A DNA stretch of 64,000 bases from Pelagicoccus sp. SDUM812003 (GTDB lineage Bacteria > Verrucomicrobiota > Verrucomicrobiia > Opitutales > Opitutaceae): positions 1 to 64,000 of the forward strand of contig NZ_JARXHY010000011.1 in NCBI RefSeq assembly GCF_031127815.1, in the 5' to 3' direction. The notes below the pieces were generated by a model. The model made no database searches and had not been told where the DNA came from. It saw only the letters and a program-made list of their open reading frames with translations. Shown here piece after piece: positions 40,627 to 63,908 of this stretch. A program made the translations under genes and the position numbers. Every line of letters starts with the position of its first letter. Positions within the stretch are counted from its first letter, which is position 1.

Positions 40627-42621
40627 GTGAAAGATAATACATACGAAACCAGCAATCAGAAGAATGGCGTGGCCGTAGCGCGTCGCAATGGGGACAGCGT
40701 CCTTGCTTCGCCCCGTGTCAATGGGTTTGGCAGCAAACCTGTGGAAAAGAAAGACAAGGGAGACGAAAAGGAAGTCGCTCGCAAGCTTGCCCAGAAGAAG
40801 GCTCAGGCCCGCACCTTGGCTCGCGCTCAGGCCGCGGCGGAAAAGCTGTCCGCAGCTTCGGAGGAGGTTTCCAGCTCGATCAACGAAGCGAGTTCGGCGG
40901 TTAACGAGCTGGAAAGCACTATGCAGCAGGTTGCATCCGGCGCCGCTCAATCGGCTTCAGCTTCCGAGGAAAGCCGTGCAGCGATCAACCAGATCGAAAA
41001 GGCGGCGACCATCGCCAACGAGCGTTCCAGTGCCTCGCTAGAAAAGACCAACGCTCTTCAGGAGCTGGTGGTATCCACCACCTTGGACATCGAAAACCTG
41101 ATCGCTGGAGTCAACGACAGCGCAAAGTCGAATATCGAGTCGGCCAAAATGATCGCCGAGCTGGAAACGCACTCCGACGAGATCGGAAAGATTGTGCATG
41201 CTGTCGCTCGCATTGCGGACCAGACGAATCTTCTGGCCCTTAACGCCGCCATCGAGGCGGCTCGGGCCGGCGAGCACGGCAAGGGTTTCGCCGTCGTGGC
41301 GGACGAGGTTCGCAATCTCGCGGAGATGAGCGAAAAGAGCGCTCGCGGTATTCAGGAGGTCATCAATGAAATCCAGGCTCAGGTGAAGGTGGTGTCTGCC
41401 GACTCCGAACAGGCGGGCAACAAGGGCCGCGAAGAGGTGGAAAAGGCAAAAACCATCACCCGCGATCTGCAAACCATCTCCAAGGATATGGGCGATGTGC
41501 GGGACAGCGTGCAGTCGATTTCGGCCAGCGCTCAGCAATCCCAGAACGGCGCCCGCGAGTACCTGAAAGGCGCCGAGCAAGTGGCGGCCGCCTCCGAGCA
41601 AGCGTCCTCTGGCTGCGAACAGGCTTTGAAGACCGTTCAGGAGCAGACCAAGGCTTATAGCGAAATGAACCAGGCGTCGGCGGACCTGGCTCAACTGGCC
41701 GAGTCGCTGAAGAACTCCACGGATATCATGAAGTCGGCCGAGGAGCTGGCGGCCGCGGCGGAAGAGCTTTCCGCGAACACCGAGGAAGTGAATCGTTCCT
41801 CAGGCGAAATCGCCGCCGCCATCGATCAGATCGACAAGGCCGCAGCCATCCAGAGCAAGGTGGCCGAGGCCAACAACAAAACCGGCGAAGAGCTTCGCGA
41901 GGCGGCGACCAACATGAACGAGCGCTCTAATGCTGGCGCCGAGCGAGCTAGAGCGATCAAAAAGCTGCTAGGGACCAACAAGGCCAACATCGACAAGATG
42001 ATCTCCGAAGTGAGCTCATCTGCCGAAGAAGCGGCCAAGTCCGCCCAGAACGTGCTCGAGCTCGAGGAGCGTACCCGCCGCATCGATAAGATTGTGGACT
42101 CCATCGTGATGGTGACTGTTCAGACCAACATGCTGGCGGTCAACGGCAACGTCGAAGCGGCCCGAGCCGGCGATTACGGGCGCGGTTTCTCCGTAGTGGC
42201 TGCGGACATACGTTCCTTGGCTAACGAGAGCAGCGAAAACGCGGATCGAATCAAGGACTTGGTCAAGACCATCCAGGCCCAGATCACCCGTGTCGCCAGC
42301 GACATCGAACTCACCGGCAAGACGGCAGCCGCGGAAGCGGTGAACGCCAAGAAGTCGACGGCCAACCTCGAGCGCATCGAGAAGGACATCGACGATGTGC
42401 TGCTTGGCATCGAGGAAGTTTCGGTGGGCGCGGGCCAGTCGCTCAAGGCTCTCGACGAAGCTGCGGCAGCGTCAGAGCAAATCAGTTCGGCTGCCGAAGA
42501 AATGTCCCGGGCTACTCAGGAAGCGGCTTCGGCAGCGGAAGAAGGTTCCAAGGCAGCTCAGGAGATCGCTCAAGCTGTCGAGGAAATCGCTTCTCAGGCG
42601 GACGAGCTGCAGCACGCGTAA
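40627..42621 (+). CDS. Soluble chemoreceptor with two tandem signalling hairpins
   Basis: 664 residues from a GTG. No membrane helix, no periplasmic domain and no recognisable ligand domain; almost entirely coiled coil. Two complete methyl-accepting signalling tips are present. The first, at about residues 195-235 ([21 protein letters not shown]), is canonical. The second, at about 495-535 ([20 protein letters not shown]), is slightly diverged. Receptors signal through CheW to CheA. Two tips in one chain is unusual and may pre-form a pair of signalling units. First gene of the 40.6-63.9 kb array; Gln/Glu pairs for CheR/CheB modification are likely but not mapped. Confidence 0.88.
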
Positions 42622-42663
42622 AGGCGGGCTGTATTCAAACCTTAATACGAAACAATTACAGAA

Positions 42664-44613
42664 ATGCCTAAAAAGCAAAACAAGCCGCAGGAGGGTCCCG
42701 TCGATACGATGGAGGCTCCCGTAGAGGCGCCGCCCACGGCGACGCTGGAGCGGCCAGAAGAGTCCGCGGTCTCCGAGACGCTTCGAGGAGCGGACGAGAA
42801 CCAGCTCGTCACGTTCTGCATCGAAGGTCAGGAGTTCGCGTTCGACATCATGTCGGTGCAGGAGATTATCCGTCAGCCGCAGATGGCCCGCATCCCCATG
42901 GCGTCAAGCTATGTGGAAGGAGTGGCCAACCTGCGAGGAAACATCCTGCCAGTTATCGATACGCGAGCTCGCTTCGGCCTGTCCCGATCGGAAGAGACGG
43001 ACCAGACTCGAGTGCTGGTGCTCGACATCGATGGAACGCAAACAGGATTGCGCGTCGATCAAGTGCGCCAGGTTACTCGCGTGCAGAGCGCCGAGGAAGA
43101 GCCGCCTCCCGAAGTGGTCAAAGGCGTCAGCGAAGACTTCCTTCGCAGCGTGATCAAGCTGGACGATGGCAAGCGCATCATTCTCGAGCTCGACCCGAAA
43201 GCGGTCTGTAGGATTGGCGATTCGGTTCGCTCCCAGTCAAAGGGCGGCAAGAAGGCCGGTCTCGGCGAATCCGCTTCTTCTCGTAGCTCGAATCACGAGA
43301 ATACCGACGCCATGGAGCAGATCGTGACCTTTCAGCTTGGCGAGGAGGAGTTCGCCTTCCCGATGGACAAGGTGCGCGAGATTCTGCGCGTACAGCGACC
43401 CAGTGCGGTGCCAGATACGCCCGAGCACGTGATGGGTGTTCTGACCATTCGCGACAAGATCCTGCCAGTTATCGACCTGCGTATTCTGCTAGGGCAGACG
43501 CCATTGACCGATGGCATCGTGGCCGATGTGGAAAGCGTGCGCGAGCAGTGCGTCCAATGGCTCGAATCGACGCGTAACTTGGTCAGATCCAAGGACGCCG
43601 ATCGCATCGAGGTTACCATTCTGGAGCAGGCTCAGCGTTGGGTTTATACCATGAACCCCGCCAGCCAAGTGCTCATCGATACCTTGGCCAAGATCCGCAA
43701 TGGTCTGGACAACGTAACGCGTGACGCTCGCAAGCTGGCGACCCTCTCTCAGGAGTCTAGTGACGAGAAAAGCCCGGCCCACGCGTTTTTTGAAAACGCG
43801 GTCGAAGGATCCTGCAAGCAAGTGATCGACAGTCTTAAGGAATACGTCCTGCAGGTGCCCGATAATGTTTTGGAAGACCAACGACTGATCGTGGTAGACG
43901 CTCTCGGCGCGCAACTCGCTCTGGTGGTGGACAAGGTGCGGGAGGTGATGAATGTCTCTCGCGACGACATCGAGGCCTCGGCTGGCTTGAACAGCGAAGA
44001 TGGTGCGGAGCTTTCTGGCATCGCCAAGCTCGACGAAGGCAAACGCCTGATCCTTATCCTCGAATCATCCAAGCTGCTCGACGAACGAGTAGCGGCCAAG
44101 CTGAAAGCTTTGGGTGGCGATCAAACTGGCGACGGCCTGGGCGAACGCGAAGGGGCAGGGGCTCATGGCAAAGGCGCGAGCTCGGACGAGCAGCAATACA
44201 TCACCTTCCGTCTTGCGGAAGAGGAGTACGCGATCCCCATAAACCAAATACAGGAGATCGACCGCTATTCCAAGATGACCCGCACTCCCAAGGCTCCGGC
44301 CTACATGGAAGGCGTGGCCAATCTGCGCGGCGAAGTCATTCCGGTGATCAACGCTCGAACCCGTTTCGATCTCGAAGGTCGCACGCCAGACGATCGCACG
44401 CGTGTGATTATCATGGATCGCGACGGCAAGAAGACCGGGTTGATGGTCGATTCGGTCAACGAGGTGCTCAACCTCGCTGCTCGCGACATCGCGGCTCCGC
44501 CAGCGACTATGTCGCACAGCGTGGACCGCGAGTTCATCTCCGGAATCGGCAAGATCAACTCCGGCAAACGCATGGTCGTGCTGCTCGATATCGACAGCGT
44601 GGTCGGCGGCTAG
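42664..44613 (+). CDS. Triple CheW-domain coupling protein
   Basis: 649 residues with three CheW domains. Domain 1 is about 47-182 (LVTFCIEGQEFAFDIMSVQE, GVANLRGNILPVID). Domain 2 is about 219-475 (IVTFQLGEEEFAFPMDKVRE, GVLTIRDKILPVID) and is split by an inserted helical block at about 282-404. Domain 3 is about 509-649 (YITFRLAEEEYAIPINQIQE, GVANLRGEVIPVIN). CheW links receptors to CheA. The insert (WLES to VLQV) resembles a zinc-binding CZB bundle by shape, but the His/Cys ligands are not visible. Such a protein could join several receptor or kinase units in one array. Confidence 0.88.
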   Translation: MPKKQNKPQEGPVDTMEAPVEAPPTATLERPEESAVSETLRGADENQLVTFCIEGQEFAFDIMSVQEIIRQPQMARIPMASSYVEGVANLRGNILPVIDTRARFGLSRSEETDQTRVLVLDIDGTQTGLRVDQVRQVTRVQSAEEEPPPEVVKGVSEDFLRSVIKLDDGKRIILELDPKAVCRIGDSVRSQSKGGKKAGLGESASSRSSNHENTDAMEQIVTFQLGEEEFAFPMDKVREILRVQRPSAVPDTPEHVMGVLTIRDKILPVIDLRILLGQTPLTDGIVADVESVREQCVQWLESTRNLVRSKDADRIEVTILEQAQRWVYTMNPASQVLIDTLAKIRNGLDNVTRDARKLATLSQESSDEKSPAHAFFENAVEGSCKQVIDSLKEYVLQVPDNVLEDQRLIVVDALGAQLALVVDKVREVMNVSRDDIEASAGLNSEDGAELSGIAKLDEGKRLILILESSKLLDERVAAKLKALGGDQTGDGLGEREGAGAHGKGASSDEQQYITFRLAEEEYAIPINQIQEIDRYSKMTRTPKAPAYMEGVANLRGEVIPVINARTRFDLEGRTPDDRTRVIIMDRDGKKTGLMVDSVNEVLNLAARDIAAPPATMSHSVDREFISGIGKINSGKRMVVLLDIDSVVGG

Positions 44614-44886
44614 CCTTAAACAAGCGCTTCGGTCCGCAGTCGCCTTCCGGTGGCTGCGGCACTCGAAGGGCTTCCCGTCATCCTGTATTCGAAATCGTAA
44701 GACTATTGTGACCGGAAGCCTTTTGAGAGCGCCCGAAAGAGCCCACGCTGTAGGGCGGGACGCTGACCCACCTATCTGGATTGTCGCCTCAGCGCGGAGA
44801 CATGCGACGCCGCAAGTGGCGAGGTCCTAGACCGTAAACGAACGAACAACTGAAAAAGAAAACCAAGGCAGGGAGCCCACAAACCG

Positions 44887-45945
44887 ATGGCCAAACACAA
44901 AGTACTGATCGCTGACGATTCGGCGCTAATGCGCCGCACGCTGCGCAAGATAATCGAGGCGGACGACGAGTTGGAGCTGGTCGCTTACGCCCGTGATGGA
45001 GCGGACGCGGTAGCCAAGGCCAAGGAGCTTCAGCCCGACGTGATTTCGCTGGATATCAACATGCCGGTGATGGACGGGGTGACCGCGTTGCAGCACATTC
45101 TCGAACTGGAGATCTGTCCGGTGGTCATGGTGTCGTCGCTCACTCAGCGTGGGGCCGCGACGACCTTCGAGTGCATGGAGCTGGGAGCCTTCGACTTCGT
45201 GGCCAAGCCAGGCGGCACGGTCAGCTCGGACATGAGCGCCGTGCAGCAGGAGCTGGTGAAGAAACTCAAGTTCGCGGCTCGCGGCCGCCATAGCAACCGT
45301 CTGGCCACTCGCCGTCGACGGGCGCGATTGGACGCTGTCCAGTTGCCGTCGACAGCGAGTCTGCGATCGGCCTCTGGTCGTTTCAGAGCGATAGCGATCG
45401 GCATTTCTACCGGAGGTCCTGGCACCATCATGGACGTGCTTCCACGAATCCCTGCGGAAACCAACGGCGCTGTCTTTCTCGTCCAGCATATGCCGGCCAA
45501 CTTTATCGGATCCTTCGTTAGCCGTCTGGACAAGGCCTGCGCTCTCACCGTGGTAGAAGCCGAATCGGGGCAGAAGGTGGAGCCTGGCTATTGCTACGTG
45601 GCCAGCGGCGATAAGCAGATGACCTTCTATCGTCGGGCCAGCGGAGCGGTGTACGTGCGCACACCGACCACGCCCAAGACGCTCTACACGCCTTCGGTGG
45701 ACGTCATGTTCGACTCCTGTCTCTCAGTCTACGGGGCGGACACCATCGGCGTGATCATGACCGGCATTGGCGATGATGGAGCGGCGGCCCTGCAGCGCAT
45801 ACGATCCGCGGGTGGACATACCATCGCTGAAAGCGAGGAAACCGCGGTGGTCTACGGCATGCCGCGCGAAGCGGTGGCAAGGGGCGCGGCGCTCGAGGTC
45901 CTGCCCTGCTGGGACGTAGCGGCCGCCATTCAAAGAGCGATTTAG
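44887..45945 (+). CDS. cheB: Chemotaxis methylesterase/deamidase CheB
   Basis: 352 residues. Receiver domain 1-125 (VLIADDSALMRRTLRK, VISLDINMPVMDG, SSLTQ, FDFVAKPGG), an Arg-rich linker, then the methylesterase domain (about 160-352) with the serine in GISTGGPGTI, the His in VQHMPANFI and the Asp in MTGIGDDGA. All three catalytic residues are present. It removes methyl groups from receptor glutamates for adaptation, activated by phosphorylation from CheA. It pairs with the CheR gene at 47066. Confidence 0.95.
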   Translation: MAKHKVLIADDSALMRRTLRKIIEADDELELVAYARDGADAVAKAKELQPDVISLDINMPVMDGVTALQHILELEICPVVMVSSLTQRGAATTFECMELGAFDFVAKPGGTVSSDMSAVQQELVKKLKFAARGRHSNRLATRRRRARLDAVQLPSTASLRSASGRFRAIAIGISTGGPGTIMDVLPRIPAETNGAVFLVQHMPANFIGSFVSRLDKACALTVVEAESGQKVEPGYCYVASGDKQMTFYRRASGAVYVRTPTTPKTLYTPSVDVMFDSCLSVYGADTIGVIMTGIGDDGAAALQRIRSAGGHTIAESEETAVVYGMPREAVARGAALEVLPCWDVAAAIQRAI

Positions 45946-45986: not shown

Positions 45987-47075
45987 ATGAGCTTAGAACA
46001 ATTCATAGCGGATCTGGACAGCGACGACGAGGCAGCTCGCATATGCGCAGCCGAGGACATTGGCTTCGAGAACGATCCGTCTGGCGTTTCTCCACTGGTG
46101 GCGCGGCTCGCAATCGAAACGCAGCGATCCGTGCAGGAAAGCTTGTTTCTGGCGATCGAGCGCATTGAAGGAGATGAGTCCATCGCCGCCCTGGTGGATT
46201 GCTTGCGCATGGACGATGCCTTTTGTCGCAACGAGGCAGTGATGATCTTGCAACGCCGCAGGCAGTCAGCCCTGCCTGCTTTGCAGGCCTTGCTGGATGA
46301 TCCCGATCCCGATGTGCGCAAGTTCGCCCTCGACGCGGTGGCCGGATGGGGACACGAGGAGCTGGCCAGCTTCTACCGTCGAGCCTTGGGAGATGAAAGT
46401 GTCAATGTGGTTATCACCGCGGTCGAGTACGTGGGACAGCATCGCTTGACCTTTTTTAAGGAGGACCTCGAGCGCCTTTTTCTCGAACGAGCCAATCCTA
46501 TGCTGCAGACCGCTTGCCTGCAGGCGCTGCTCGATGTGGGAGACGCTCAGAGCGCTGAGCTGGTGTTGCGACGCTTTCCGACCTTGGAGGTGACGCCGAT
46601 CCATCTTCTGGACGACTGGCTGCGAGCGCTCGGTAAAATAGCGGGAACCGATCGATTCAACACCTTGATCGGGAGTCTAGCGTATGTGGGAGACAACTAC
46701 TTGGACTCTTGGGTGGACGCGTTCGTTCGCATGGGTCGGCGAGCTGGAGTAACCATGCTCGAAGAGATGATGCAGGCGCGTATCCTTGAACTGGTGACGG
46801 GCGACGCACTCGAGTCTGCCACACGGGTTCAGCTCGTTTCCTTTCTCTTTGGTTTGAAAGCGAACGCTGCGGTGGATAGCGCTTTGCTCAACTGTCTCTG
46901 CGACCCCGATCCGGCGGTTCGGCTCTGCGTGGCGAACGAAGCTCTGGCTGGGAAACGCGACGTATGGAGTGGGCGCTTGTCCGAGAGATTGGCTCTCGAA
47001 AGCGACTCCATTGTTCGGGAGCGATTGCGTGAGGCCGTCCTGGCCTTCGAAGGAAAGGCCCGCTCATGTCGATGA
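45987..47075 (+). CDS. HEAT-repeat protein in the chemosensory array
   Basis: 362 residues made of about ten HEAT-like helical pairs, for example EAARICAAEDIGFENDPSGV, NEAVMILQRRRQSALPALQA and PDPDVRKFALDAVAGWGHEEL. No catalytic motif. It lies between cheB and cheR and overlaps the cheR start by 10 bases. HEAT proteins act as scaffolds; here it probably holds components of the signalling array, which is inference from position. Confidence 0.8.
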   Translation: MSLEQFIADLDSDDEAARICAAEDIGFENDPSGVSPLVARLAIETQRSVQESLFLAIERIEGDESIAALVDCLRMDDAFCRNEAVMILQRRRQSALPALQALLDDPDPDVRKFALDAVAGWGHEELASFYRRALGDESVNVVITAVEYVGQHRLTFFKEDLERLFLERANPMLQTACLQALLDVGDAQSAELVLRRFPTLEVTPIHLLDDWLRALGKIAGTDRFNTLIGSLAYVGDNYLDSWVDAFVRMGRRAGVTMLEEMMQARILELVTGDALESATRVQLVSFLFGLKANAAVDSALLNCLCDPDPAVRLCVANEALAGKRDVWSGRLSERLALESDSIVRERLREAVLAFEGKARSCR

Positions 47076-47902
47076 ACCTCAGCGCCGACCAATACCGAAA
47101 GATCAGAGAACTGATCTACCGGCACATGGGAGTCGCCTTCGACGATGGCAAGCGCTACTTTCTGGAGAAGCGTTTGGAGACTCGCATGTCCGCCCTGCGA
47201 ATCGAACGGTTCGACGACTATCTCTTTCTATTGCGATTCCCGACCCGCGGGGAGGATGAGCTGCAGCAGTTCGTTAACGAGATAACGACTAACGAAACCT
47301 ACATGTTTCGCGAGTTCGAGCAGTTGCAGACCTTCGCCGACGACTGCCTGCCCGAAACGCTCATGCGCAAGGATTCGGCCAACGATCGGAATCTGCGCAT
47401 CTGGTGCGCGGGCTGCAGCTCAGGGGAGGAGGCATACACCTTGGCTATGATCCTGCGGGAGACGGTGCACGATCTCGACAGCTGGACGCTGGAGCTGCTT
47501 GCTTCGGACATCGACGAGACTCGTCTTGGTATGGCGAGTCGAGCTGTTTACGACCGACGTTCGGTGGCCCAAGTGCCCGAGGCCTACTACGATCGCTACA
47601 TCGAAGAACGTGATGGCAAGTACCACATCGCTCCGTCGCTGAAGCGCATGGTTCGGTTCGAGAATATCAACCTGCACGACCGAAAGGCCATGCGAGGGCA
47701 GCGAGGGTTCGACTTCGTCTTTTGTCGCAACGTTTTGATCTACTTCGACGAGGTGTCGCGACGTGGCGTGGTCGATAACTTTTACAACGCCATGAATAGC
47801 GGCGGCTTCATTTTCCTAGGCCATTCGGAATCGGTAGGCCGCTTTTCGACGAAATTCGCCCTAAAGCGGCTGGGGAGAAGCTTGGTGTACTACAAAAATT
47901 AA
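47066..47902 (+). CDS. cheR: Chemotaxis methyltransferase CheR
   Basis: 278 residues. An N-terminal all-helical domain (about 1-70), then a SAM-dependent methyltransferase domain: ITTNETYMFREFEQ, RIWCAGCSSGEEAYTLAMIL (SAM site), DIDETRLGMA, FVFCRNVLIYFDE, FIFLGHSES. It methylates receptor glutamates with S-adenosylmethionine. Adaptation needs it together with CheB. Confidence 0.95.
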   Translation: MSMNLSADQYRKIRELIYRHMGVAFDDGKRYFLEKRLETRMSALRIERFDDYLFLLRFPTRGEDELQQFVNEITTNETYMFREFEQLQTFADDCLPETLMRKDSANDRNLRIWCAGCSSGEEAYTLAMILRETVHDLDSWTLELLASDIDETRLGMASRAVYDRRSVAQVPEAYYDRYIEERDGKYHIAPSLKRMVRFENINLHDRKAMRGQRGFDFVFCRNVLIYFDEVSRRGVVDNFYNAMNSGGFIFLGHSESVGRFSTKFALKRLGRSLVYYKN

Positions 47903-47909: not shown

Positions 47910-48278
47910 ATGGTTTCGATGAAAACAATTCTTATAATCGATGATTCCCAGACGGTTCGGAATTATCACAAGAGCATCGTGAAGGCGGGCGGCTTTCGGG
48001 TTGTGACTGCGGTCGATGGGGCGGATGGGTTGGAGAAACTCTACCTTAACTCGGTGGATATGGTATTGACCGACATCAACATGCAGGGGATCGACGGCTA
48101 CGAGTTCACGCGGCGTGTTCGGTCGGATAGAAGTTTCGAACGCCTGCCGATCGTGATGATTTCCACCGAAGGCGAGGAAAGCGACAAGCTCAAGGGCTTC
48201 GAGGCCGGAGCGAATCTTTACATGGTCAAGCCCGCTGAGCCCGAGTTCATACTCGAGCAGATACGGATGTTTTTGTAG
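47910..48278 (+). CDS. Single-domain CheY-like response regulator (first)
   Basis: 122 residues. Receiver with acidic pair IIDDSQTVR, phospho-acceptor in MVLTDINMQGIDG, the conserved Thr/Ser in ISTEG and the Lys in YMVKPAEPE. Alternative ATG four codons in. Its stop overlaps the next start by one base. Output is unknown; with no flagellar genes in view it may serve twitching, or a regulatory partner. Confidence 0.92.
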   Translation: MVSMKTILIIDDSQTVRNYHKSIVKAGGFRVVTAVDGADGLEKLYLNSVDMVLTDINMQGIDGYEFTRRVRSDRSFERLPIVMISTEGEESDKLKGFEAGANLYMVKPAEPEFILEQIRMFL

Positions 48279-50203
48279 TGGAAAAATGGCGACAGTGTAA
48301 ACGCGCGATGTGGCGGATGTTTCCCTCTGCCAGCGGCGGACCTTCGGCGGATCGCTTGAAGGAGCTATCGGCGAGGCTATGCGTGGCCAGCGAACGACTC
48401 GCTGCCTACAGCCGGCAGTCGGAGGGCGAATTCGCATCGCTCGCTCGCGGCACGGGCGAACTGTTTGCTCGTATCGAGGCTATGCGGGAGCGGGCCCGCT
48501 CGCTCGATGGGCTGGTGCGGGGAACCGGCGAGGATCACGCCTTGTGTTCCGCTTTTCAGCTCTACAAGAGCGCGAGCGACTTGGTGCAATCGAGCCTCGG
48601 CTTCGGAAATTTCGCGGCTCGCGAGCTGGAGCTGGTGGATCCGGTGCTCAGGGAGTGCTGCTCCCATCAGCGGGAGTGTCAGAACGTCGTCATGCATTTC
48701 TCGATACTCGGCACTGGATTTCGCATCGAGTCCGCGTATTTGGCCCCTGAGGATCAAGCCGTCTTCGACGGAGTGGCCAGCGATATCGTCGCGACGCAGC
48801 GGAGACTCGGACGCATGACCGAGGAGGTGTTTGGAAAGCTCAAGTCCAGTCTGAGCTGCTTGGTAAACGATCGCAAACGCACGGAGAAGGTGCACCGAGA
48901 GCTCGAGTGCGACATCGTTCTGTCGGCTCAAGCGATCCGCAAGGAGCTTGACGGAACATCCGAGGCCCTCGCTCCCGCGGGGGAGTTGAGCGAACGAATC
49001 GTGGCGCATTCCGACCGCGGCCCCGCGATGGTGGGCTCGGTGGTGGAAGCCCTGCAAATGGATGACGTCGTCCGCCAGAAGCTGGAGCACGTTTGCAAAA
49101 ACCTCAGCGAGCTCTCCGAACTCCTTGCGTCGTCGTCGATGAAGAAAGGCAAGCAGCGCAAGGAAGACCTGGCGTATGTGAACGTGAGCGCCCGGGTGCA
49201 GCTGGAACAGCTCAGGCAGGCTCGGCGAGAGATCGGCGAAGCGGGCAAGACGGTGCTCGGTGGAGTTCGCTCTCTGATGGATTTGGGCGGGGAGTTGATT
49301 GAATCTCTGACGGAACTGCAGGAACGGGTAGCGTCCTCGCTCGACAATTGCGAGACCGCGCGGCTTTTCTCCCGCGAGATCGAGAAGATCGGCGAAATCG
49401 CCCGCTCCTGTTCGGAAATCAATCAGCGCATCGCCCGCCTCACGGACGAGATCGTGGAGATCATCGATTCGTTTTCCCGCGACATCCTGAAGCAGAACTT
49501 CGATATCAAGGTGGTCGCCCTCAACGCTCAGGTGTCCGCCAGTCGCTCGTTGGGCGGTCGGACCATGGAGCGGCTGGCTGCGGAAACCGCCAACCTCGCT
49601 TCTAAGAACGAGTCCATGACCAGTTCGATGCTTTCGACCCTGAGTGATCTGCCTTCTCGGCTGATGAAGTTGCAGGAGGACTCGCAGCGGTTTCTGGAGC
49701 TCGCCGGGCGGGACCAGGAAGCCCTTTCCGAAGACAGTTCGCTGGTGACCCAGCGCTTGGAGTCCATGGACGATCACATCCTTAGCGAGGCCAGATCCAT
49801 GGGCCGGGAATTCGAAGGGCTGCGACGAGAGACTGACGCTTTGCTCAGTTCGCTCACGTTTCCGAATTTGGTCGAGGACGTCTTTGAGAAGGCGGAGGAA
49901 ACCTGTTCGGTCCTGATCGAATTGACGGGGCGTTTCGCAAGGGAGGCGGATGCTCAGGCTGTTGAGAGTCGAGTGGAAAGCTTGAAGCAGTCCTACACCA
50001 TGAAGCGGGAAGTGGTCGCTCACGAAAGCGCCTTGTTGGCCGAATCCGAGGACGCTTCACCTAAGAAAAGGTATTCAGAAAAAGAGTACGTAAATCCGGT
50101 TTCGGATTCCCAGAAGGACGCGACTTCGAGAATCGAGAATCTTGCGGTCGTCTCGCTCGCCGCTCAAGGGGAGTCGGACGACGACGGAATAGAGTTATTT
50201 TAG
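48278..50203 (+). CDS. Coiled-coil protein with a degenerate chemoreceptor-like hairpin
   Basis: 641 residues from a GTG; an ATG 10 codons in (48308) is the alternative. All alpha-helical with heptads. About 405-440 contains ILKQNFDIKVVALNAQVSAS and RSLGGRTMERLAAETANLAS, which aligns in pattern to the receptor tip ([30 protein letters not shown]) but keeps few key residues. Near 255 is VEALQMDDVVRQKLEHVCKN, similar to the QF(Q)DIxRQ pattern of receptor-associated coiled coils. It may compete with or organise true receptors, or bind CheA/CheW weakly. Function is inferred from context only. Confidence 0.6.
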   Translation: MEKWRQCKRAMWRMFPSASGGPSADRLKELSARLCVASERLAAYSRQSEGEFASLARGTGELFARIEAMRERARSLDGLVRGTGEDHALCSAFQLYKSASDLVQSSLGFGNFAARELELVDPVLRECCSHQRECQNVVMHFSILGTGFRIESAYLAPEDQAVFDGVASDIVATQRRLGRMTEEVFGKLKSSLSCLVNDRKRTEKVHRELECDIVLSAQAIRKELDGTSEALAPAGELSERIVAHSDRGPAMVGSVVEALQMDDVVRQKLEHVCKNLSELSELLASSSMKKGKQRKEDLAYVNVSARVQLEQLRQARREIGEAGKTVLGGVRSLMDLGGELIESLTELQERVASSLDNCETARLFSREIEKIGEIARSCSEINQRIARLTDEIVEIIDSFSRDILKQNFDIKVVALNAQVSASRSLGGRTMERLAAETANLASKNESMTSSMLSTLSDLPSRLMKLQEDSQRFLELAGRDQEALSEDSSLVTQRLESMDDHILSEARSMGREFEGLRRETDALLSSLTFPNLVEDVFEKAEETCSVLIELTGRFAREADAQAVESRVESLKQSYTMKREVVAHESALLAESEDASPKKRYSEKEYVNPVSDSQKDATSRIENLAVVSLAAQGESDDDGIELF

Positions 50204-50260
50204 AACGACAAATAAAAACCCAAGCCGCGCTGCCAGGAGTCTGGCGGCCAAAAACAATTG

Positions 50261-51493: not shown

Positions 51494-51519
51494 GCGCCTA
51501 CGCTCGGGAGGCAGTAGTC

Positions 51520-53756: not shown

Positions 53757-53808
53757 CGACTTGGCTCGCCGTACCCCCAACCCCCCTTCAACGACGACTC
53801 CCACAGTC

Positions 53809-56592: not shown

Positions 56593-56721
56593 CGATGACG
56601 GAGAACGACTTTGAAAAAAAGGTATTAAGCGAGTAGAATTATGGCAGATCGAGTTGATGAAAACGGAACATTGATTTTCGAGATGGGTTGGAGGCTTGTT
56701 GAAGCGCTTCGATCGATTCGT

Positions 56722-57411
56722 ATGAAAAAAGGTATTTATATTCTGGACGGCCAACCCCTCGCACGTCGCGGCATTCAGTCGCTGCTCGAGCAGCAGGGGG
56801 GCGTCGAACTATTGGGAGCCTCGGGCAGTGTGCGTAAGGCGAATCAGGAGATATTGCGGCTGCGGCCGGACTTGCTGATTTCTGAGATGACCCTGCCCGA
56901 CGGCAGCGCCATTGATCTGATTCGTTCCTTAGTCGCCCGCGTGTCGCAGGTACGGATTTTAGTTTGCTCGGCCAACGACGAGACCATTTTCGCGGAGCGG
57001 GCCATCAAGGCGGGGGCCCACGGCTACGTGATGAAGACGGAGGCGGAGTCGGTTATCCTGAAGCGCGTGCAGCAGGTGCTGGATGGGGGCTTGGGCCTAA
57101 ACGACAAGCTCGCCAGCCGCATGCTGCGTCGCATGAGCGGAGCGAGCCGCTACGATTTGCCCGTTTTCGGGGCCAGCTTGACTATGGAAAATTTGAGCGG
57201 CCGGGAGATGGAAGTATTCGAGATGCTGGGGCGTGGCTTGGCGTCGAAGGAAATTGCGGGGCTGCTGGGAATCAGTCCTCGCACGGTGGACACGCACCGG
57301 GCCCGGATCCGCGAAAAGCTCGGTTTCGCTTCCACGCCTGACCTGTTGCGGGCGGCGTATTCCTGGAACGAGAGTGGACGCTTGGCAGGCGCGGAAGGAA
57401 GCGGCTGGTAG
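56722..57411 (+). CDS. LuxR-type regulator with an atypical receiver (Asp to Glu)
   Basis: 229 residues from the ATG at 56722. The N-terminal receiver-like domain has DLLISEMTLPDGS where Asp-x-x-MP is expected, so Glu55 replaces the phospho-acceptor. The first acidic pair is also lost (ILDGQPLARR). The conserved Lys survives (GYVMKTEAE). The C-terminus is a LuxR helix-turn-helix (about 160-220: LSGREMEVFEMLGRGLASKE then ISPRTVDTHRARIREKL). A Glu can mimic phospho-Asp, so it may be permanently active or respond to protein partners. The DNA targets are unknown; it is the only DNA-binding output in the array. Confidence 0.85.
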   Translation: MKKGIYILDGQPLARRGIQSLLEQQGGVELLGASGSVRKANQEILRLRPDLLISEMTLPDGSAIDLIRSLVARVSQVRILVCSANDETIFAERAIKAGAHGYVMKTEAESVILKRVQQVLDGGLGLNDKLASRMLRRMSGASRYDLPVFGASLTMENLSGREMEVFEMLGRGLASKEIAGLLGISPRTVDTHRARIREKLGFASTPDLLRAAYSWNESGRLAGAEGSGW

Positions 57412-57501: not shown

Positions 57502-58668
57502 ATGCGAGAGGAATCCATTTTGATTGTCGAGGACGACCCGGATCTGAGGTCCAGCTTGGTGCAGGCCCTAGAGGATCGCGGTTATCGTACCGCTGCGGCG
57601 AGCTCGTTGAGCGAAGCGTTGCAATTCGCCAGCCAGCGCCAGCCTTCGCTCATAGTGAGCGATGTGCATCTGAAGGAAGGCGATGGCCGAGACTTGCTTC
57701 AGCTGCTTAGTCGGGAGAATTGCCTGGGCGGGTGTCAGTTCGTTTTCATGACCGGGGATATTGATGGACTGCCGCAGCGCTCGGGCATGAATCTGGGCGC
57801 GGACGACTACTTGGCGAAGCCCTTCGCCATCGAGGAGTTCTTCGATTGTGTCGAGGCCCGCTTGCACAAGCGCGGCACCAAGCGCGAGTCGGACGATCGG
57901 CTGTTGGCGATGATGCGCGATTCCGTTTCGCTGACCGTGCCGCACGAGTTCCTCACTCCGCTCAACGGGGTGATCGGGCTGTCGGAATTTCTAATGCAGT
58001 CCGACGAGGATTTGTCTCTGGAGAGCGTTCGCGAACTCGCCGGCGACATCAACCAGTGCGGCACCGAGCTTCTAAGAACGCTGCGAAACTACTTGGCCAT
58101 CTTGGACGTGATTCACCACCCGTCATCGGTTTCGCAGGAACTGCCCTTGACGACCTCGGAGGACATCAACCAGTCCCTGATGAAAGTCGGCCAAGCGGTC
58201 GCGGGCTCCAAACGGCGATCGGAGGACATCAGCTGGAAGCAGCTCATGCCGCCGGCGAAGTGCGCTCGATTGAATCTGGAGCGGTTCGAAGCGGTCGCCC
58301 ACGAGCTGCTGGACAACGCTTTCAAGTTCTCTCGCCCCGGAGCCAAAGTTCGCTTGAGCGCGGGGCTATCCGGCGAGCGTCTTCTGCTGACAGTGGAGGA
58401 CCGCGGTTGTGGAATGTCAGCCGAGCAGGTGCGCTCCGTCGGGGCTTTTCGTCAATTCGATCGGCGTCGCTACATGCAGCAGGGTCTGGGGCTGGGGCTT
58501 ACGTTGGCTCAAAAGCTCCTGCACCAGGATGGGGGCGACTTGCGACTGGAGAGTCAGGTCGGACAGGGAACCCTCGCCATTGCCCATTGGCCCCAGTCGG
58601 TCTCGGTCCACGAGCAGGAATCTCAAGCGTGGATGGAGGCGCCGGCGCATGGCCACGGAAAAGACTGA
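57502..58668 (+). CDS. Receiver-histidine kinase hybrid
   Basis: 388 residues. Receiver first (1-120): LIVEDDPDLRSSLVQ, IVSDVHLKEGDGRDL, FMTGD, YLAKPFA. Then a HisKA domain with LTVPHEFLTPLNGVIGLSEF (His148) and a HATPase with ERFEAVAHELLDNAFKFSRP, DRGCGMSAEQV and GLGLGLTLAQKL. No membrane helix. A kinase that itself carries an N-terminal receiver is controlled by another kinase. Its 3' end overlaps the next small gene by 20 bases. Confidence 0.9.
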   Translation: MREESILIVEDDPDLRSSLVQALEDRGYRTAAASSLSEALQFASQRQPSLIVSDVHLKEGDGRDLLQLLSRENCLGGCQFVFMTGDIDGLPQRSGMNLGADDYLAKPFAIEEFFDCVEARLHKRGTKRESDDRLLAMMRDSVSLTVPHEFLTPLNGVIGLSEFLMQSDEDLSLESVRELAGDINQCGTELLRTLRNYLAILDVIHHPSSVSQELPLTTSEDINQSLMKVGQAVAGSKRRSEDISWKQLMPPAKCARLNLERFEAVAHELLDNAFKFSRPGAKVRLSAGLSGERLLLTVEDRGCGMSAEQVRSVGAFRQFDRRRYMQQGLGLGLTLAQKLLHQDGGDLRLESQVGQGTLAIAHWPQSVSVHEQESQAWMEAPAHGHGKD

Positions 58669-58918
58669 AAACCTGTTCTGCATCCAGGCGCCAACAGGGG
58701 TGGAGACGCTCGGCATGCTCCGGAAGTTTCTCGGGTATCGGGCGGAGGCGCTTTGGCTGGAGGCCTGCGAAGCGTGCGGCGTGAAAGCCGAAGCCTCGAG
58801 CGTGACCGAACTCGAACAAATAGCTCACTTTCTATCTAAGCAAGGATCGTTGGCGGCGGTCGTCGGCAACGGCGCGCTGATTCGTATCCGCGTCTATCGC
58901 AGCACTTTAGCTCAATGA
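58649..58918 (+). CDS. Small protein of unknown function in the signalling array
   Basis: 89 residues from the ATG at 58649 (MATEKTENLFC). One compact helical unit (LGMLRKFLGYRAEALWLEACEA then SVTELEQIAHFLSKQGSLAAV). No family recognised. It overlaps the kinase gene by 20 bases and its TGA overlaps the next ATG, so it is co-translated, which supports a real gene. Two cysteines (EACEACG) are notable. Confidence 0.6.
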   Translation: MATEKTENLFCIQAPTGVETLGMLRKFLGYRAEALWLEACEACGVKAEASSVTELEQIAHFLSKQGSLAAVVGNGALIRIRVYRSTLAQ

Positions 58919-59457
58919 ATTTCGATAAGCAAAACACCTTGTCAGAACGCAGCAAAGCGATTCTTCACAACCCGAGCCGTCTGGAGTTAATCGCCCGCTT
59001 AGGGCTATTCTCCGACGAAGCTCGAAGCGCGCTGAAACGCTACACGAGGTCGGCGGCCCGGCGCATGAACCTGCCGGTGAGCCTGATCTCGCTGGTGCTA
59101 CACGATTCGCAGTACTTTGCCGCGAGCTACGGGCTCGATCCGGACTTGTTCGATGGGGCCAGCGGCACGCCGATCGAGTGGTCGTTTTGCCGTTTCGCGG
59201 TGGAAGAACGCCGCGCATTCGTGGTGTGCGATGCCATGAACGACTCGCGAGTAAAGGGAAATCCGCTGGTGCTCAGCGGCATGATTGGCTGCTACGCCGG
59301 CGCTCCTCTGATCAGCTCGTTCGGTCTCGTATTGGGAACGCTTTGCGTCATCGGAACCGAGCCGCGGCTCTTCCAGGAAGGGGAGATCGATCGTCTGCGG
59401 GGCCTTGCGGATGTGGCCATGCAGGAGATCGAGTTGTCGAACTTCGGCGAAAACTAG
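58915..59457 (+). CDS. GAF-domain protein
   Basis: 180 residues. A GAF fold at about 30-175: ARRMNLPVSLISLVLHDSQYF, TPIEWSFCRFAVEERRAFVV, NPLVLSGMIGCYAGAPLIS and LGTLCVIGTEPRLF. GAF domains bind cyclic nucleotides, haem or other small ligands. It has no output domain, so it would pass its signal through protein contacts, perhaps to the large kinase next door. Confidence 0.88.
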   Translation: MNFDKQNTLSERSKAILHNPSRLELIARLGLFSDEARSALKRYTRSAARRMNLPVSLISLVLHDSQYFAASYGLDPDLFDGASGTPIEWSFCRFAVEERRAFVVCDAMNDSRVKGNPLVLSGMIGCYAGAPLISSFGLVLGTLCVIGTEPRLFQEGEIDRLRGLADVAMQEIELSNFGEN

Positions 59458-59636
59458 CGAAAGCGCAGCCTAGGTATTCTGGGATTTTTAGCGCCCGGCC
59501 CTTGGGCCCGCGGCAATCTTGCGCTTAGTTGCAAGCGTTCCGGCGACCAAGGCGCTGTCGGGAGGTCGGGATTGAAAACGCCACCGCGGTCGTCGACGCC
59601 TCCTCCGCTGCGGGGGCGAAGCGGACACGATTGACT

Positions 59637-62600
59637 ATGGACGGTATCGGGGCGGATAACATGTTGCAGGAGCGGATGAGCGAAGAGCTGTCGGACTTGC
59701 TCGCCCTTTGTCGAAGCGCTACCGGCGCCGATGCGGTTTGGCTGGCGGAGATCGATGAAAGCGGCAGCGCCTTTCGAGTGGTCGCCTCCACCGGTGTCAA
59801 AGAGCTGCCAGGGGAGTGGGTGGACTGGGCGAGGCCGCTTCTGGAAGGCCTCGGTTCCTCGATCGAGTCGGTTTGCCAATGTCCGGTGAGCGAGGTGCTC
59901 AGCGCCGAATCCGGTATGACCGCGCCCCAGCCTCTCTGGCGGCGCTTGGCGGCCGTGCGGCTAGTCGAAGCGACGACCTCCGCAAGAGCGGCGCTCTTGC
60001 TGGGCTTCTCCGCGGCGGACCCTCTCAGTCCAGGACAACGCGAGGAAGCGAAACGCTCGGGGCGCTTGCTCGCTCGTCTTGGCCGACTAGAGTCCGTGAA
60101 GAGCGAGCGGGACGACATCGCTCGTCAGCGCGACTTGTTGAAGGAGCGATTCGCCGACGCGGAACGCATCGCGAACTTTGGCCACTGGGTGTTGGGCTTG
60201 GACGATGGTCGGCTGAGCTGGTCCGACGAAGTGTACCGGATTTTCGGCGTGGAGCCGCAGTCCTTCGGCCAGACCTTCGAATCGTTTTTATCCTTTGTTC
60301 ATCCAGAAGACCGGCCTGCATTGCTCGAGGCTCAAGACCGCGCGTTGCGGGAAGAAAGCCTGATGGTGCATGAGCACCGAGTGGTGAGGCCCGATGGCTC
60401 GATTCGACATGTGCTGGAGCGTGGCGAGCTCATACCCGCGAACGACATGCAAGGAAGGCGCTTCGCAGGCGTCGTTCTGGACATCACCCGTCGCAAGAAA
60501 GCGGAATTGGCGGCAAATCGAGAAGAAGCGCGCCACCGAGCCCTTTTCGAGCATCTGCCGGACCTGGCCTTCGTGGTGACGGATGGATGTATCGAAAAAA
60601 TAAACACAGCGGGGCTCGGTCTACTCGGAGTCGATCAGGCGGAGCAGATCGTGGGGCGATCTCCGCTGGTGTTCGTGCATCCGGAAGAGGTGGAAGCCGT
60701 ATCGGAGCGTTTTGCGAAACTGGTGGAGGAGGCGCCTACCATCGCCCCGCATCGGACCGTTCGGGTGGTTTTGCCGAAGGGGGATGTGTGTTGTTTCGAG
60801 ATTTGCTCGTCCTCTTTTCATACGCCTGAAGGCAGCGTTTCCATCCAGGTCGTTTGTCGAGATGTGACGCGCCGCATCGAGCTGGAGCGAAAGGAAGAGG
60901 AACGCTCGCGCATGATGGCGATCGCGAGCCGCCTCGCTCGAATGGGAGCTTGGCGAGTCGACCTGGAGGAACGGCGGGTTGTCTGGTCTGATGAAGTGGC
61001 CAAGATCCATGGGCGCGAACCTGGATACGTTCCCAGCTTGGTCGAGGCGTTCAGCTACTATGCTCCAGAGGATCGGCAGCGTATCGCGGACGCGTTCGAT
61101 CGTTGCGCCCAGGAAGGGCAGTCGTTTGACGAGGAATCGAGCATCTTCGACGCCAGCGGAAATCAAGTGAGGGTTCGAGCCATAGGCCTGCCGCAAAGAG
61201 ATGAGACGGGACGAGTGGTGGGCGTTCAAGGGGCGTTTCAAGACATCACTCAACAGAAGCGAATCGAAGCTGAACTCCGGGAACGCGATCGCGAGCTGAA
61301 GCGCGTCGTGGAGCGCTTGACCACCACGCTGGAGAGCATAACTGATGCGTTTTTCACGGTGGATACGGAATGGAAGTTCACCTATCTCAACGGTGAAGCG
61401 GAACGGCTCTTGCAAAGCCAGCGTTCGAGCCTCTTGGGACAAAGCATCTGGGAGGCGTTCGCTGCAGCCCGAGGGACCGCGTTCGAGGAAGAATATCGTC
61501 ATGCTGTGAGGGAACGCGCAAGCGTGAGTTTCGAAGCCTACTATCCACCGTTGCGATCGTGGTTTGAGGTCAATGCCTATCCCTCTGCGGAGGGACTGGC
61601 GGTATACTTCCGCGACGTAACCCAACGCCGAAAGGCTGAAGAGCATATGCGGTTCTTGGAGACCTGCGTCGAGCGGATGAACGACATCGTCCTGGTGACC
61701 GAGGCCCGGCCGATCGACGAGCCGGGGCCGCGCATCACCTTCGCCAACCCTGCCTTCGAAAGGCTGACTGGCTACTCTCGGGAGGAAGTGATCGGAAAGA
61801 CGCCTCGCATCCTGCAGGGGCCCTTGACGGATCGCGAGGAGTTGGACCGAATCCGCGACGCCATGCGGCGCGACCAGCACGTGCGCTCCACGGTGGTGAA
61901 CTACGACAGGAAAGGAAAGGCCTACTGGCTGGAAATGGACATCGTTCCCTTGAAAGACGCCACGGGTGAGGTGACGCGCTTTCTGGCGGTCGAGCGCGAC
62001 GTGACGGAGAGCAGAGAACGGCAAAATGCTCTGCAGGAGCGCGAGCAGGCTCTGAGCGCGTTGATGAATGGGCTGCCTGGTCTGGTCTTCCTTTGCGCCC
62101 CGGATGGTTCTTTGGTCCGGTGGAATCGCGAGCTGGAGCGCGCTCTGGGATACGCAGCGGAGGAATTGCAGGGCGCCAAGGCGCTGGACCTGTCTGCTCC
62201 GGAGGATCGGGAACGGATGCAGGAACGCATGCAACAGGTCTTCCGAGACGGGTTTGCGGAAGCAACCCTCCGCCTGCGAGCTAAGGACGGGACGCAGATC
62301 ACGTTTTTCTTCCGAGCGACGCGCGTCTCGGTGGAGGGCCAGGCGCGCTTGCTTGGCGTGGCCATGGACGTCACCGAGCATCGTCGGGCCGAAGAACGCA
62401 TTCGCTGGCAGGCAGCCTTGCTGGACCAGACCCAGGACGCGATTTTCGCTCTGTCGGGCGAGGGGGAGGTGTTTTATTGGAATCGATCGGCGGAGCGCCT
62501 CTATGGCTGGAGCGAAGCGGAAGCGGTAGGGAAGCTGAGGGTCGAGGACCTGTTCGCCGAAGCAGGTCGAGCGAAGCAGCTGATGGGCCTAGTCAAGAGC

Positions 62601-63908
62601 GACGGCTCCTGGTACGGCGAGGCGATCCAGCTGGATCGCAACAAGCGCAGCTTGACCGTGGCCACCAGCTGGACCTTGCTCTCTCAAGGTGTCGATCGAT
62701 GCGAGGCGACGGATGTCCTTGTCGTGAATACGGACATATCCGAACGGAAGCGATTGGAAGAGCAGTATTTGCGAGTTCAGCGAATGGAGGCGATCGGCAC
62801 GCTGGCCGGAGGGATCGCCCATGATTTGAATAACATCCTTTCTCCTATCCTGCTTTCGATCGACATGTTGAAAGCCCGCTCCACCGATGAGCGCGACCTG
62901 CGCACGCTCTCTACCATCGAATCCGCTGGCAAGCGCGGCGCGGCAATCGTTAAGCAGGTGCTATCCTACGCCCGAGGCTTCGGCGGCGAGCAGGTCGCGC
63001 TGGTGCCGAAGCACATGGTCAACGAGCTCTTCAGCCTGCTCAAGGAAACCTTTCCACGCTCCATCGAATTCTCGCTTCAGCTCGGCGCCGACATAGGGTT
63101 GATAAAAGGGGATCCGACGCAGGTGCAGCAGGCCTTGATGAACCTTTGCGTCAATGCTCGCGATGCCATGCCCGAGGGTGGATCGCTGTCGATCTCACTA
63201 GAGAAAAGGACGCTTGATCGAGACTGTGAAATCGGGGGCTTGAGAGCGGGCGCGGGCGCGTACGTGGCCTTTATCGTTTCCGACACGGGACAAGGCATGA
63301 CGCCGGAGGTGCTGGAGCGGATCTTCGATCCGTTTTATTCGACCAAGGGCGAGGGCAAGGGGACCGGCTTAGGCTTGTCTACGGTTCAACAAATCATGAA
63401 GGCGCATAGCGGCTACGTGCAGGTCGAGTCGACCCCCAGCGGAGGGAGTTCCTTCATACTAGGGTTTCCAGCGTTGGAGGAGAAAGAAGCGCCGATCGTC
63501 CCCGGCGAGGATTCGGAACTCCCGCGGGGCAAGGGCGAGACGCTTCTAGTGGTCGATGACGAGGAATCGGTGCGCTTGATCGCGCAAGAGATGTTGGAGG
63601 ATTTCGGATACAAGGTCCTTTTGGCGGAAAACGGCGCCAAGGCCCTGACGCTCTTCCATCGAAATCGAGGGCGTATCGATGCTCTGGTGACAGACATGAT
63701 GATGCCTGTGATGGATGGCGCCGCTTTGATCCGCGGAGCCCGACTTGTCGAACCGAGGTTGCCCATCATCGTGACCACTGGCTTCACGGACCAAGCGAGC
63801 AAAGTGAAAGACGCCGAGGCCAAGGGAGCGCTTGTTTTGGCTAAGCCTTACACTGCGAAAACGATTTTGCGGGGGCTGCGGGATGTGTTGGATCGAGTTC
63901 CTAGCTAG
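59637..63908 (+). CDS. Large hybrid kinase: GAF, seven PAS domains, HisKA, HATPase, receiver
   Basis: 1423 residues from the ATG at 59637; upstream codons to a TTG are probably non-coding. Order: a GAF-like domain (about 10-140), seven PAS units (about 180-300, 310-430, 440-560, 565-680, 680-810, 815-930 and 935-1050), HisKA with GGIAHDLNNILSP (His1062), HATPase with ALMNLCVNARDAMP and KGTGLGLSTVQQI, and a C-terminal receiver with Asp1353 in LVTDMMMPVMDG. No membrane helix. PAS5 has the LOV-like GKTPRILQGPLTD, with Pro where the flavin-binding Cys would be. An integrating sensor for several cytoplasmic signals; ligands unknown. Confidence 0.92.
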   Translation: MDGIGADNMLQERMSEELSDLLALCRSATGADAVWLAEIDESGSAFRVVASTGVKELPGEWVDWARPLLEGLGSSIESVCQCPVSEVLSAESGMTAPQPLWRRLAAVRLVEATTSARAALLLGFSAADPLSPGQREEAKRSGRLLARLGRLESVKSERDDIARQRDLLKERFADAERIANFGHWVLGLDDGRLSWSDEVYRIFGVEPQSFGQTFESFLSFVHPEDRPALLEAQDRALREESLMVHEHRVVRPDGSIRHVLERGELIPANDMQGRRFAGVVLDITRRKKAELAANREEARHRALFEHLPDLAFVVTDGCIEKINTAGLGLLGVDQAEQIVGRSPLVFVHPEEVEAVSERFAKLVEEAPTIAPHRTVRVVLPKGDVCCFEICSSSFHTPEGSVSIQVVCRDVTRRIELERKEEERSRMMAIASRLARMGAWRVDLEERRVVWSDEVAKIHGREPGYVPSLVEAFSYYAPEDRQRIADAFDRCAQEGQSFDEESSIFDASGNQVRVRAIGLPQRDETGRVVGVQGAFQDITQQKRIEAELRERDRELKRVVERLTTTLESITDAFFTVDTEWKFTYLNGEAERLLQSQRSSLLGQSIWEAFAAARGTAFEEEYRHAVRERASVSFEAYYPPLRSWFEVNAYPSAEGLAVYFRDVTQRRKAEEHMRFLETCVERMNDIVLVTEARPIDEPGPRITFANPAFERLTGYSREEVIGKTPRILQGPLTDREELDRIRDAMRRDQHVRSTVVNYDRKGKAYWLEMDIVPLKDATGEVTRFLAVERDVTESRERQNALQEREQALSALMNGLPGLVFLCAPDGSLVRWNRELERALGYAAEELQGAKALDLSAPEDRERMQERMQQVFRDGFAEATLRLRAKDGTQITFFFRATRVSVEGQARLLGVAMDVTEHRRAEERIRWQAALLDQTQDAIFALSGEGEVFYWNRSAERLYGWSEAEAVGKLRVEDLFAEAGRAKQLMGLVKSDGSWYGEAIQLDRNKRSLTVATSWTLLSQGVDRCEATDVLVVNTDISERKRLEEQYLRVQRMEAIGTLAGGIAHDLNNILSPILLSIDMLKARSTDERDLRTLSTIESAGKRGAAIVKQVLSYARGFGGEQVALVPKHMVNELFSLLKETFPRSIEFSLQLGADIGLIKGDPTQVQQALMNLCVNARDAMPEGGSLSISLEKRTLDRDCEIGGLRAGAGAYVAFIVSDTGQGMTPEVLERIFDPFYSTKGEGKGTGLGLSTVQQIMKAHSGYVQVESTPSGGSSFILGFPALEEKEAPIVPGEDSELPRGKGETLLVVDDEESVRLIAQEMLEDFGYKVLLAENGAKALTLFHRNRGRIDALVTDMMMPVMDGAALIRGARLVEPRLPIIVTTGFTDQASKVKDAEAKGALVLAKPYTAKTILRGLRDVLDRVPS

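Follow-up and report, generated by a model that had tools for sequence, protein, structure and literature searches.

The window analysed here is the 64,000-nucleotide stretch at the start of contig C11 (NZ_JARXHY010000011.1) of Pelagicoccus sp. SDUM812003, whose genome comprises 5.75 Mb in 88 contigs. It carries a chemosensory operon in which the genes of a complete stressosome are placed between cheR/cheY and cheA: RsbR, RsbS, the switch kinase RsbT and TX, a protein with an RsbT-like ATPase and an RsbX-like phosphatase. We propose that the operon encodes a cytosolic, probably non-motility chemosensory pathway with RsbT as its dedicated regulator or input switch, held in this organism by the co-encoded stressosome. 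We give this proposal an even chance of being correct.

In the pathway envisaged, RsbT would be held by the RsbR/RsbS stressosome in the window genome. On stress it would phosphorylate RsbR and RsbS, leave the complex and bind the chemosensory machine, biasing the balance of CheA–CheY phosphorylation, and TX would reset the stressosome via its RsbX-like phosphatase. The likeliest docking partner of RsbT would be a CheZ-like receptor protein encoded in the same operon, with CheA second. The same RsbT lineage may work in myxobacteria from operons that hold no RsbR or RsbS.

Myxobacterial operons and ancestry of RsbT

Operons of this class, searched for with the triple CheW protein (W3) of the window, are rare. 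At 1e-40 the query matched one of 252 genomes of the family, the organism's own, twice (the second copy, on contig C13, is without Rsb genes). At 1e-50 it matched four of 289 genomes of the class of G490, and narrower myxobacterial samples (3/144 and 2/75) gave the same genomes again. G490 is a metagenome-assembled genome (MAG) of an uncultured Sandaracinus sp. (Myxococcota); G766 and G730 were taken as myxobacteria by their grouping with it. The gene order in G490 (L223 and L124), G766 (L184) and G730 (L201 and L290) is MCP-W3-CheB-HEAT-CheR-CheY-STAS-CheY-receptor-like-RsbT-CheA, the G490 operon being read from two contigs and the G766 contig ending after ~50 residues of the CheA match. RsbT lies between the receptor-like gene and CheA in three of the four myxobacterial operons, and the gaps that flank it are 12–35 bp in L124 and L201, the two loci with clear starts. 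No RsbR, RsbS or TX gene lies beside it in G490, G766 or G730. The fourth operon, in G652 (L222), reads MCP-W3-CheB-HEAT-CheR-CheY-STAS-CheA, with a contiguous stretch of second CheY, receptor-like gene and RsbT missing. The CheB+CheR tree has G652 as sister to G730 within the myxobacterial clade, so that loss is the simplest reading of the missing stretch. The HEAT gene is present in all four operons. An RsbR search at 1e-6 recovered three homologues from G730, a single one from G652 and none from G490 or G766; RsbT is thus kept in G490 and G766 without a detectable stressosome, if the assemblies hide none.

An RsbT tree was calculated from 105 sequences and rests on few columns (127). The window RsbT and the three che-linked myxobacterial RsbTs form one clade (100/95) separate from the usual stressosome RsbTs, the latter three group at 100/89, and a second RsbT of the organism, on contig C9, is placed elsewhere. 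In the CheB+CheR tree the grouping of the window operon with those of the myxobacteria has a support of 84/78, short of the starred level, and the C13 operon falls outside. CheR and CheB of the window are 52–61% identical to those of the myxobacterial operons, and the receptor is 60–67% identical to its four myxobacterial counterparts, some of which are partial. Both the operon class and its RsbT are of common ancestry in the window and the myxobacteria, and from the two groupings RsbT was probably in the operon before the window and myxobacterial lineages parted. TX groups with myxobacterial ATPase domains (99/93, five rows) on a very long branch and its place in the tree is therefore unsure.

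The receptor-like protein and RsbT are present together in four of the six triple-CheW operons found (window, G490, G766 and G730) and absent together from the other two (C13 and G652), which makes the receptor-like protein the first candidate partner.

Gene content of the array

The array at 40627–63908 was checked gene by gene against Pfam and NCBIfam. Gene identities are from Pfam matches and calls of no family were made at 1e-3. Every gene named in the preliminary description of the window was found on the + strand in the order given there:

40627..42621, +, cytosolic chemoreceptor with two signalling tips, 664 amino acids (aa) (PF00015 MCPsignal 3.5e-66, three stretches)
42664..44613, +, triple CheW, W3 (PF01584 9.6e-104, four stretches)
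44887..45945, +, CheB, REC and methylesterase (PF01339 2.6e-56, PF00072)
45987..47075, +, HEAT-repeat protein (PF13646 3.5e-19)
47066..47902, +, CheR (PF01739 1.1e-56)
47910..48278, +, CheY-like receiver Y1 (PF00072 1.4e-25)
48278..50203, +, receptor-like protein ('MCPlike') with a CheZ-like DxxxQ motif, 641 aa (no Pfam family at 1e-3)
50258..51106, +, RsbR, RsbRD_N and STAS (PF14361 1.8e-15, PF01740 9.8e-14)
51113..51493, +, RsbS, STAS (PF01740; 6qcm RsbS 4.3e-21)
51490..51933, probable start 51520, +, RsbT switch kinase, GHKL (PF02518/PF13581)
51935..53038, +, TX, RsbT-like ATPase and RsbX-like PP2C phosphatase (PF07228 SpoIIE 4.4e-6; PF13581 6.1e-4, below its cut-off)
53065..53358, +, small STAS protein, CheS-like (PF13466 2.1e-4 on a longer open reading frame (ORF), below its cut-off)
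53385..53756, +, CheY-like receiver Y2 (PF00072 1.5e-25)
53761..56592, +, CheA with two Hpt stretches, dimer, ATPase and CheW domains (PF01627, PF02895, PF02518, PF01584)
56641..57411, +, LuxR-type regulator, its receiver degenerate, perhaps a unit of its own (PF00196, PF00072)
57502..58668, +, REC-HisKA-HATPase hybrid kinase (Pfam; HisKA just below its cut-off)
~58649..58918, +, small ORF of ~89 aa (longer ORF 58409-58918 without Pfam or NCBIfam match)
58915..59457, +, GAF protein (PF01590 3.1e-8)
59529..63908, +, multi-PAS histidine kinase with receiver (several PAS families, HisKA, HATPase_c, Response_reg)

The chemosensory set is complete (CheA, CheW, receptor, CheR, CheB and CheY). The four Pfam CheW stretches of W3 were read as three domains, one of them split, in agreement with its description as a triple CheW. 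The receiver of the LuxR-type regulator has Glu at the expected phospho-acceptor Asp position (sequence read by eye), and the label 'pseudo-receiver' given to it is therefore correct. Intergenic gaps range from −20 to +54 bp, which bears out the tight spacing described previously for most of the array; the exceptions are the longer gaps that precede cheB (273 bp, after W3), the hybrid kinase gene (90 bp) and the PAS kinase gene (71 bp). The closely spaced genes may be co-transcribed. Promoter and terminator scans gave no excess over shuffled sequence.

No flagellar gene is present among the Pfam matches of the array, as had been stated. RsbU, RsbV, RsbW and SigB had likewise been described as lacking. 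No SigB-type or other sigma factor was found among the array's Pfam matches (no search for SigB covered the remainder of the genome), a LuxR-type HTH alone cross-matching a sigma-70 region 4 model, and the sole PP2C protein, TX, is nearest to RsbX-like proteins among solved ones. By domain models alone RsbW is not separable from RsbT, nor RsbV from other STAS proteins.

The array had been taken as one unit to 63908. In L201 (G730), the sole related myxobacterial operon read past cheA, the genes 3' of cheA are on the opposite strand and none matches a window gene; cheA (56592) is therefore the probable end of the conserved unit. Two kinases begin 0.9 and 2.9 kb after cheA in the window, histidine kinases often follow the stressosome genes of relatives (two were found with an N-terminal RsbT-like ATPase), and linkage of Gram-negative modules to kinases, phosphatases and cyclic-di-GMP enzymes has been described (passages of PMC9237108). 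All of this would suit an array that is co-expressed and nothing more, the two systems answering the same conditions and signalling separately, with the stressosome output elsewhere, e.g. in the downstream REC-kinase or PAS kinase. We consider this explanation unlikely, though worth keeping in view, given that the myxobacterial RsbT stays in the che operon without adjoining RsbR, RsbS and TX and, in L201, without these kinases after cheA.

Recent horizontal import was rejected as judged by composition, the G+C content at third codon positions (GC3) of the array being within the range of its flanks. A search for plasmid carriage gave one partial match among 72,556 records at 1e-30. No tRNA genes are present in the window. 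A 769-aa ORF at 32246-34555, next to a glycosyltransferase gene, has no Pfam family at 1e-3.

Stressosome module

The STAS domain of RsbR aligns to the solved stressosome RsbR structures 9o4r/7b0u at 1.2e-26 with both Thr-bearing motifs conserved, and RsbS carries Thr where the best-aligned solved RsbS chains (6qcm, 4.3e-21) have Ser. Both proteins retain Thr at the stressosome phosphosite positions in the alignments. RsbT has the GHKL fold by Pfam and was identified as RsbT also by the tree; it gave no PDB sequence match at 1e-3. The sequence favours a start at the ATG at 51520, which GGAGG precedes, over the TTG at 51490. The nearest solved relatives of TX are the SpoIIE-type phosphatase 3zt9 (6.4e-12) and RsbX 3w40 (1.8e-5). 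RsbR, RsbS, RsbT and an RsbX-type phosphatase are thus all encoded between cheR/cheY and cheA, as had been proposed, and the module would be expected to assemble as a megadalton stressosome complex.

The RsbT-RsbX fusion noted in the preliminary description is present as TX. It is not special to the array: such fusions recur in che-free stressosomes of relatives and on contig C9, and it is therefore nothing unusual in this group. The C9 locus (L093, ~8096-12452) is a second, che-free stressosome of the organism, with a kinase-like ORF downstream.

Receptor-like protein

The alignment of the receptor-like family (27 sequences including that of the window) has just three invariant columns, Q260, D263 and Q267 (numbered from Met1), of which D263 and Q267 form a DxxxQ motif (27/27). 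The C-terminal half of the family profile matches the MCP cytoplasmic domain 2ch7 at 6.4e-15, and two Geobacteraceae members match Pfam MCPsignal above its cut-off (2.7e-17 and 8.3e-15). By hhalign the DxxxQ motif is in register with the CheZ active site D143/Q147, a weak match (E 0.064). The small relatives L148 (1.1e-4) and L149 (8.4e-9) match the NCBIfam CheZ model, both below the curated cut-off. An ELF-type C-terminal peptide (e.g. GIELF, NVELF) is present in 27 of 32 listed members; of the other five, one is cut by a contig end and four are small. A model of the window protein (mean pLDDT 86.5) gave no Foldseek match at E 0.001 or better, and VIA-align returned many unrelated helical proteins at similar Z, with chemoreceptors among them and CheZ not among the best 50 rows; such fold searches do not discriminate among long helical proteins.

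We read the family as a combination of a CheZ-like phosphatase with an MCP hairpin, a description that would extend to the window protein. The invariant DxxxQ motif in a helical protein and the below-cut-off matches of the small relatives resemble CheZ phosphatases; unlike them, the window protein is 641 aa with an MCP-like half and matches no CheZ model. With its MCP hairpin and CheZ-like motif it is a candidate target of RsbT. In other che classes the receptor-like protein occurs without RsbT, and any dependence would therefore be one-way.

The family was used as a survey query (34 loci) in place of a TX alignment, which was dropped as its conservation is too low. Owing to the divergence of the remaining myxobacterial receptor-like proteins, the scan recovered one che-RsbT case only, L124.

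Chemosensory proteins and the small STAS protein

The receptor at 40627-42621 has two QTN-LA-N tips (in the stretches from residues 187 and 487) and no transmembrane-like stretch (maximum KD19 1.20), and is cytosolic by hydropathy. The pathway probably has a non-motility or alternative cellular function, as far as its gene content tells.

The small STAS protein (53065-53358) fits CheS by its STAS fold and by its CheS-type place beside cheY and cheA. CheS of Sinorhizobium is a STAS-only protein reported to bind CheA (PMC12654446, in part). RsbT normally acts on STAS proteins, and the copies in L124 (G490) and L201 (G730) have Thr at the acceptor position, as would be expected of a partner-switch substrate of RsbT or TX. 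The window copy has Ala where RsbS and RsbR have Thr, as does the RsbT-bearing L184 (G766), and the RsbT-free C13 copy has Thr. The acceptor residue therefore shows no correlation with the presence of RsbT, and the protein was not taken as an RsbT substrate; the reported binding of CheS proteins to CheA also speaks against that role, which we regard as highly improbable. CheS-like and without a phospho-acceptor, the protein would be a poor bridge between the systems.

Related che operons in the genome and its relatives

A second operon of the class lies on contig C13 (L009, 6745-17538) and reads MCP-W3-CheB-HEAT-CheR-CheY-STAS-CheY-CheA, with no receptor-like gene and no Rsb match within 20 kb. 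Its triple CheW is 33% identical to that of the window and the operon is not a recent duplicate. By comparison with C13, the window operon holds an extra block (receptor-like gene, RsbR, RsbS, RsbT and TX) between CheY and STAS, either gained or retained.

Relatives in the family (L083 in full; L084, L086 and L088 in part) have an otherwise different che operon with receptor-like gene, hybrid kinase, STAS, CheY and CheA. A PAS-HisKA-REC-Hpt kinase fills the slot of the stressosome after the receptor-like gene in L083, L084, L086, L088 and L089, the last of these, on the organism's own contig C21, having no cheA after the two genes. In Geomonas a STAS, CheY or cheA gene comes shortly after the receptor-like gene, and no kinase intervenes. 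Another che operon, with the receptor-like gene first, is shared by L104 (own contig C8) and L137 (Pelagicoccus mobilis); it is perhaps the ancestral system of the genus.

Distribution of stressosome–che linkage

TX matched 18 of 252 family genomes at 1e-10, the organism's own included, and six of 273 in an even sample of the order. Among the family genomes, long matches outside the window are at most 35% identical, and identity is up to 45% in RsbT-only stretches. All 22 other RsbT/TX regions from these searches were fetched (20 from the family and two from the order, several cut by contig ends) and are those referred to below. In the myxobacterial class RsbT was found in 84 of 289 genomes at 1e-15. 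The 95 myxobacterial RsbT regions (L124 counted) cover every listed match; one, L285, shows no RsbT at 1e-6 on rescan. Any che-type match is present in eight of them, and stressosomes therefore usually do without che genes. The eight are the three triple-CheW operons, the L281 array and four regions (L258, L261, L267 and L271) in which a CheB-type protein near RsbT is the sole che-type match. REC-CheB was confirmed by Pfam in L261 only, and in three of the four an opposite-strand receiver gene lies between the CheB-type protein and RsbT. L281 (G607, 3-11990) reads REC-CheA-CheW-HEAT-CheR-MCP-RsbT-RsbX-RsbR-ATPase-RsbS-RsbR on one strand; it is an independent, unrelated che-stressosome array, and its RsbT is closest to other lineages.

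A survey for the same gene order had been suggested as a check. It returned three myxobacterial genomes in which an orthologous RsbT lies in an operon of this class; the full RsbRST-TX module came from the window genome alone. That uniqueness within the sample would agree with a stressosome cassette inserted by chance in a che operon and hitch-hiking there, as would a rough, uncomputed estimate that about one che neighbourhood by proximity alone is expected among 95 RsbT regions. On that estimate the weight rests on the 12–35 bp intercalation of RsbT in L124 and L201 and on its conservation, not on the count. The link probably predates the split between window and myxobacterial operons that now differ considerably in CheR and CheB, and chance is the least probable of the explanations considered. 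The arrangement is not merely a strain-specific insertion, with the RsbT–che link shared by three myxobacterial operons and an unrelated array in G607 besides.

Comparison with known systems

The module resembles the RsbRST(X) stressosomes of Bacillus, Listeria, Moorella and Vibrio in the order RsbR-RsbS-RsbT and in the positions of the STAS phosphosites, and the Gram-negative RSTX modules in the RsbX-like phosphatase directly downstream (PMC9237108, in part). It differs in being embedded in a che operon, in the N-terminal RsbT-like ATPase of its RsbX and in having no sigma factor. The module kinds given downstream of stressosomes in passages of the same source are phosphatases, cyclic-di-GMP enzymes and kinase phosphorelays. 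An aerotaxis role has been proposed for the stressosomes of Vibrio brasiliensis and V. vulnificus, in V. brasiliensis from a CheY-like neighbour (PMC4976288; PMC4260858, both in part); unlike that single neighbour, the window has CheA, CheW, CheR, CheB, a receptor and CheYs in one array. The likeness to the CheS proteins of Sinorhizobium and Agrobacterium, also small, STAS-only and encoded beside cheY and cheA (PMC12654446, in part), is one of position and fold alone. A stressosome or lone RsbT inside a CheA operon appears in no title or abstract among the literature matches listed.

CrsR of Shewanella is receiver-controlled. The Pfam matches of TX include no receiver domain, and TX is therefore not a receiver-controlled phosphatase or anti-sigma protein of the CrsR/CrsA type. 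In Shewanella oneidensis, Che1 with CrsR/CrsA provides partner-switching genes within a chemosensory operon and Che1 is believed to take part in the control of RpoS by way of them (PMC9855816, in part; the passage on CrsR gives its anti-sigma domain only). Signals in the window might by this precedent flow in reverse, CheA/CheY output controlling the stressosome or RsbT, and TX could be a controlled phosphatase. The missing receiver domain of TX and the absence of a sigma factor from the array make this improbable. The window differs from Che1-CrsR/CrsA also in its complete stressosome and in an RsbT that persists alone in related operons. It can be regarded as a variant added to a known coupling of chemosensory and partner-switch systems, with Che1-CrsR/CrsA as precedent.

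RsbT as a proposed input switch

The preliminary description suggested that the two sensory machines share output. This is one option only; stress input into the chemosensory pathway fits better. In its fullest form, the proposal of RsbT as input switch would make RsbT an original part of one chemosensory class, docked on the array, probably at the CheZ-like receptor protein, and gating the CheA–CheY phospho-balance; in Pelagicoccus the gate would be loaded by a complete stressosome, a megadalton stress sensor feeding a chemosensory array directly. This fuller form is put forward tentatively, and we think it rather doubtful as a whole.

Several observations weigh against RsbT as input switch. 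The complete RsbRST-TX module in this che position was found in the window genome only among the genomes sampled, none of the 22 other RsbT/TX regions of the order has a CheA, CheW, CheR or CheB match at 1e-6, and 87 of the 95 myxobacterial RsbT regions have no che match. Gene order differs between the window and myxobacterial operons, and two of the six operons of the class (C13 and G652) are without RsbT. G490 is a MAG, and G766 and G730 are genomes of unstated completeness, so that RsbR can be called absent only provisionally; in G730 homologues of it are present outside the operon. All three lone che-RsbTs are without the G[YF][ST][ST] lid motif retained in the window RsbT and so may work differently. 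The altered ATP lid was rejected as a mark of lone che-RsbTs, the motif being absent also from 15 of 59 other small RsbT-like ORFs, a weak sign. The match of the window receptor-like protein to CheZ is likewise weak (E 0.064).

The RsbT target in Moorella is reported to be a diguanylate cyclase, and the RsbT partner in V. brasiliensis is stated as unknown (PMC4976288, in part). RsbT targets in bacteria without SigB are known in few cases. The conservation of RsbT next to CheA, in two of the genomes without an RsbR match, narrows its candidate partners to a handful of proteins. If the proposed role of RsbT is correct, it would connect two large sensory assemblies of bacteria that are as a rule investigated separately.

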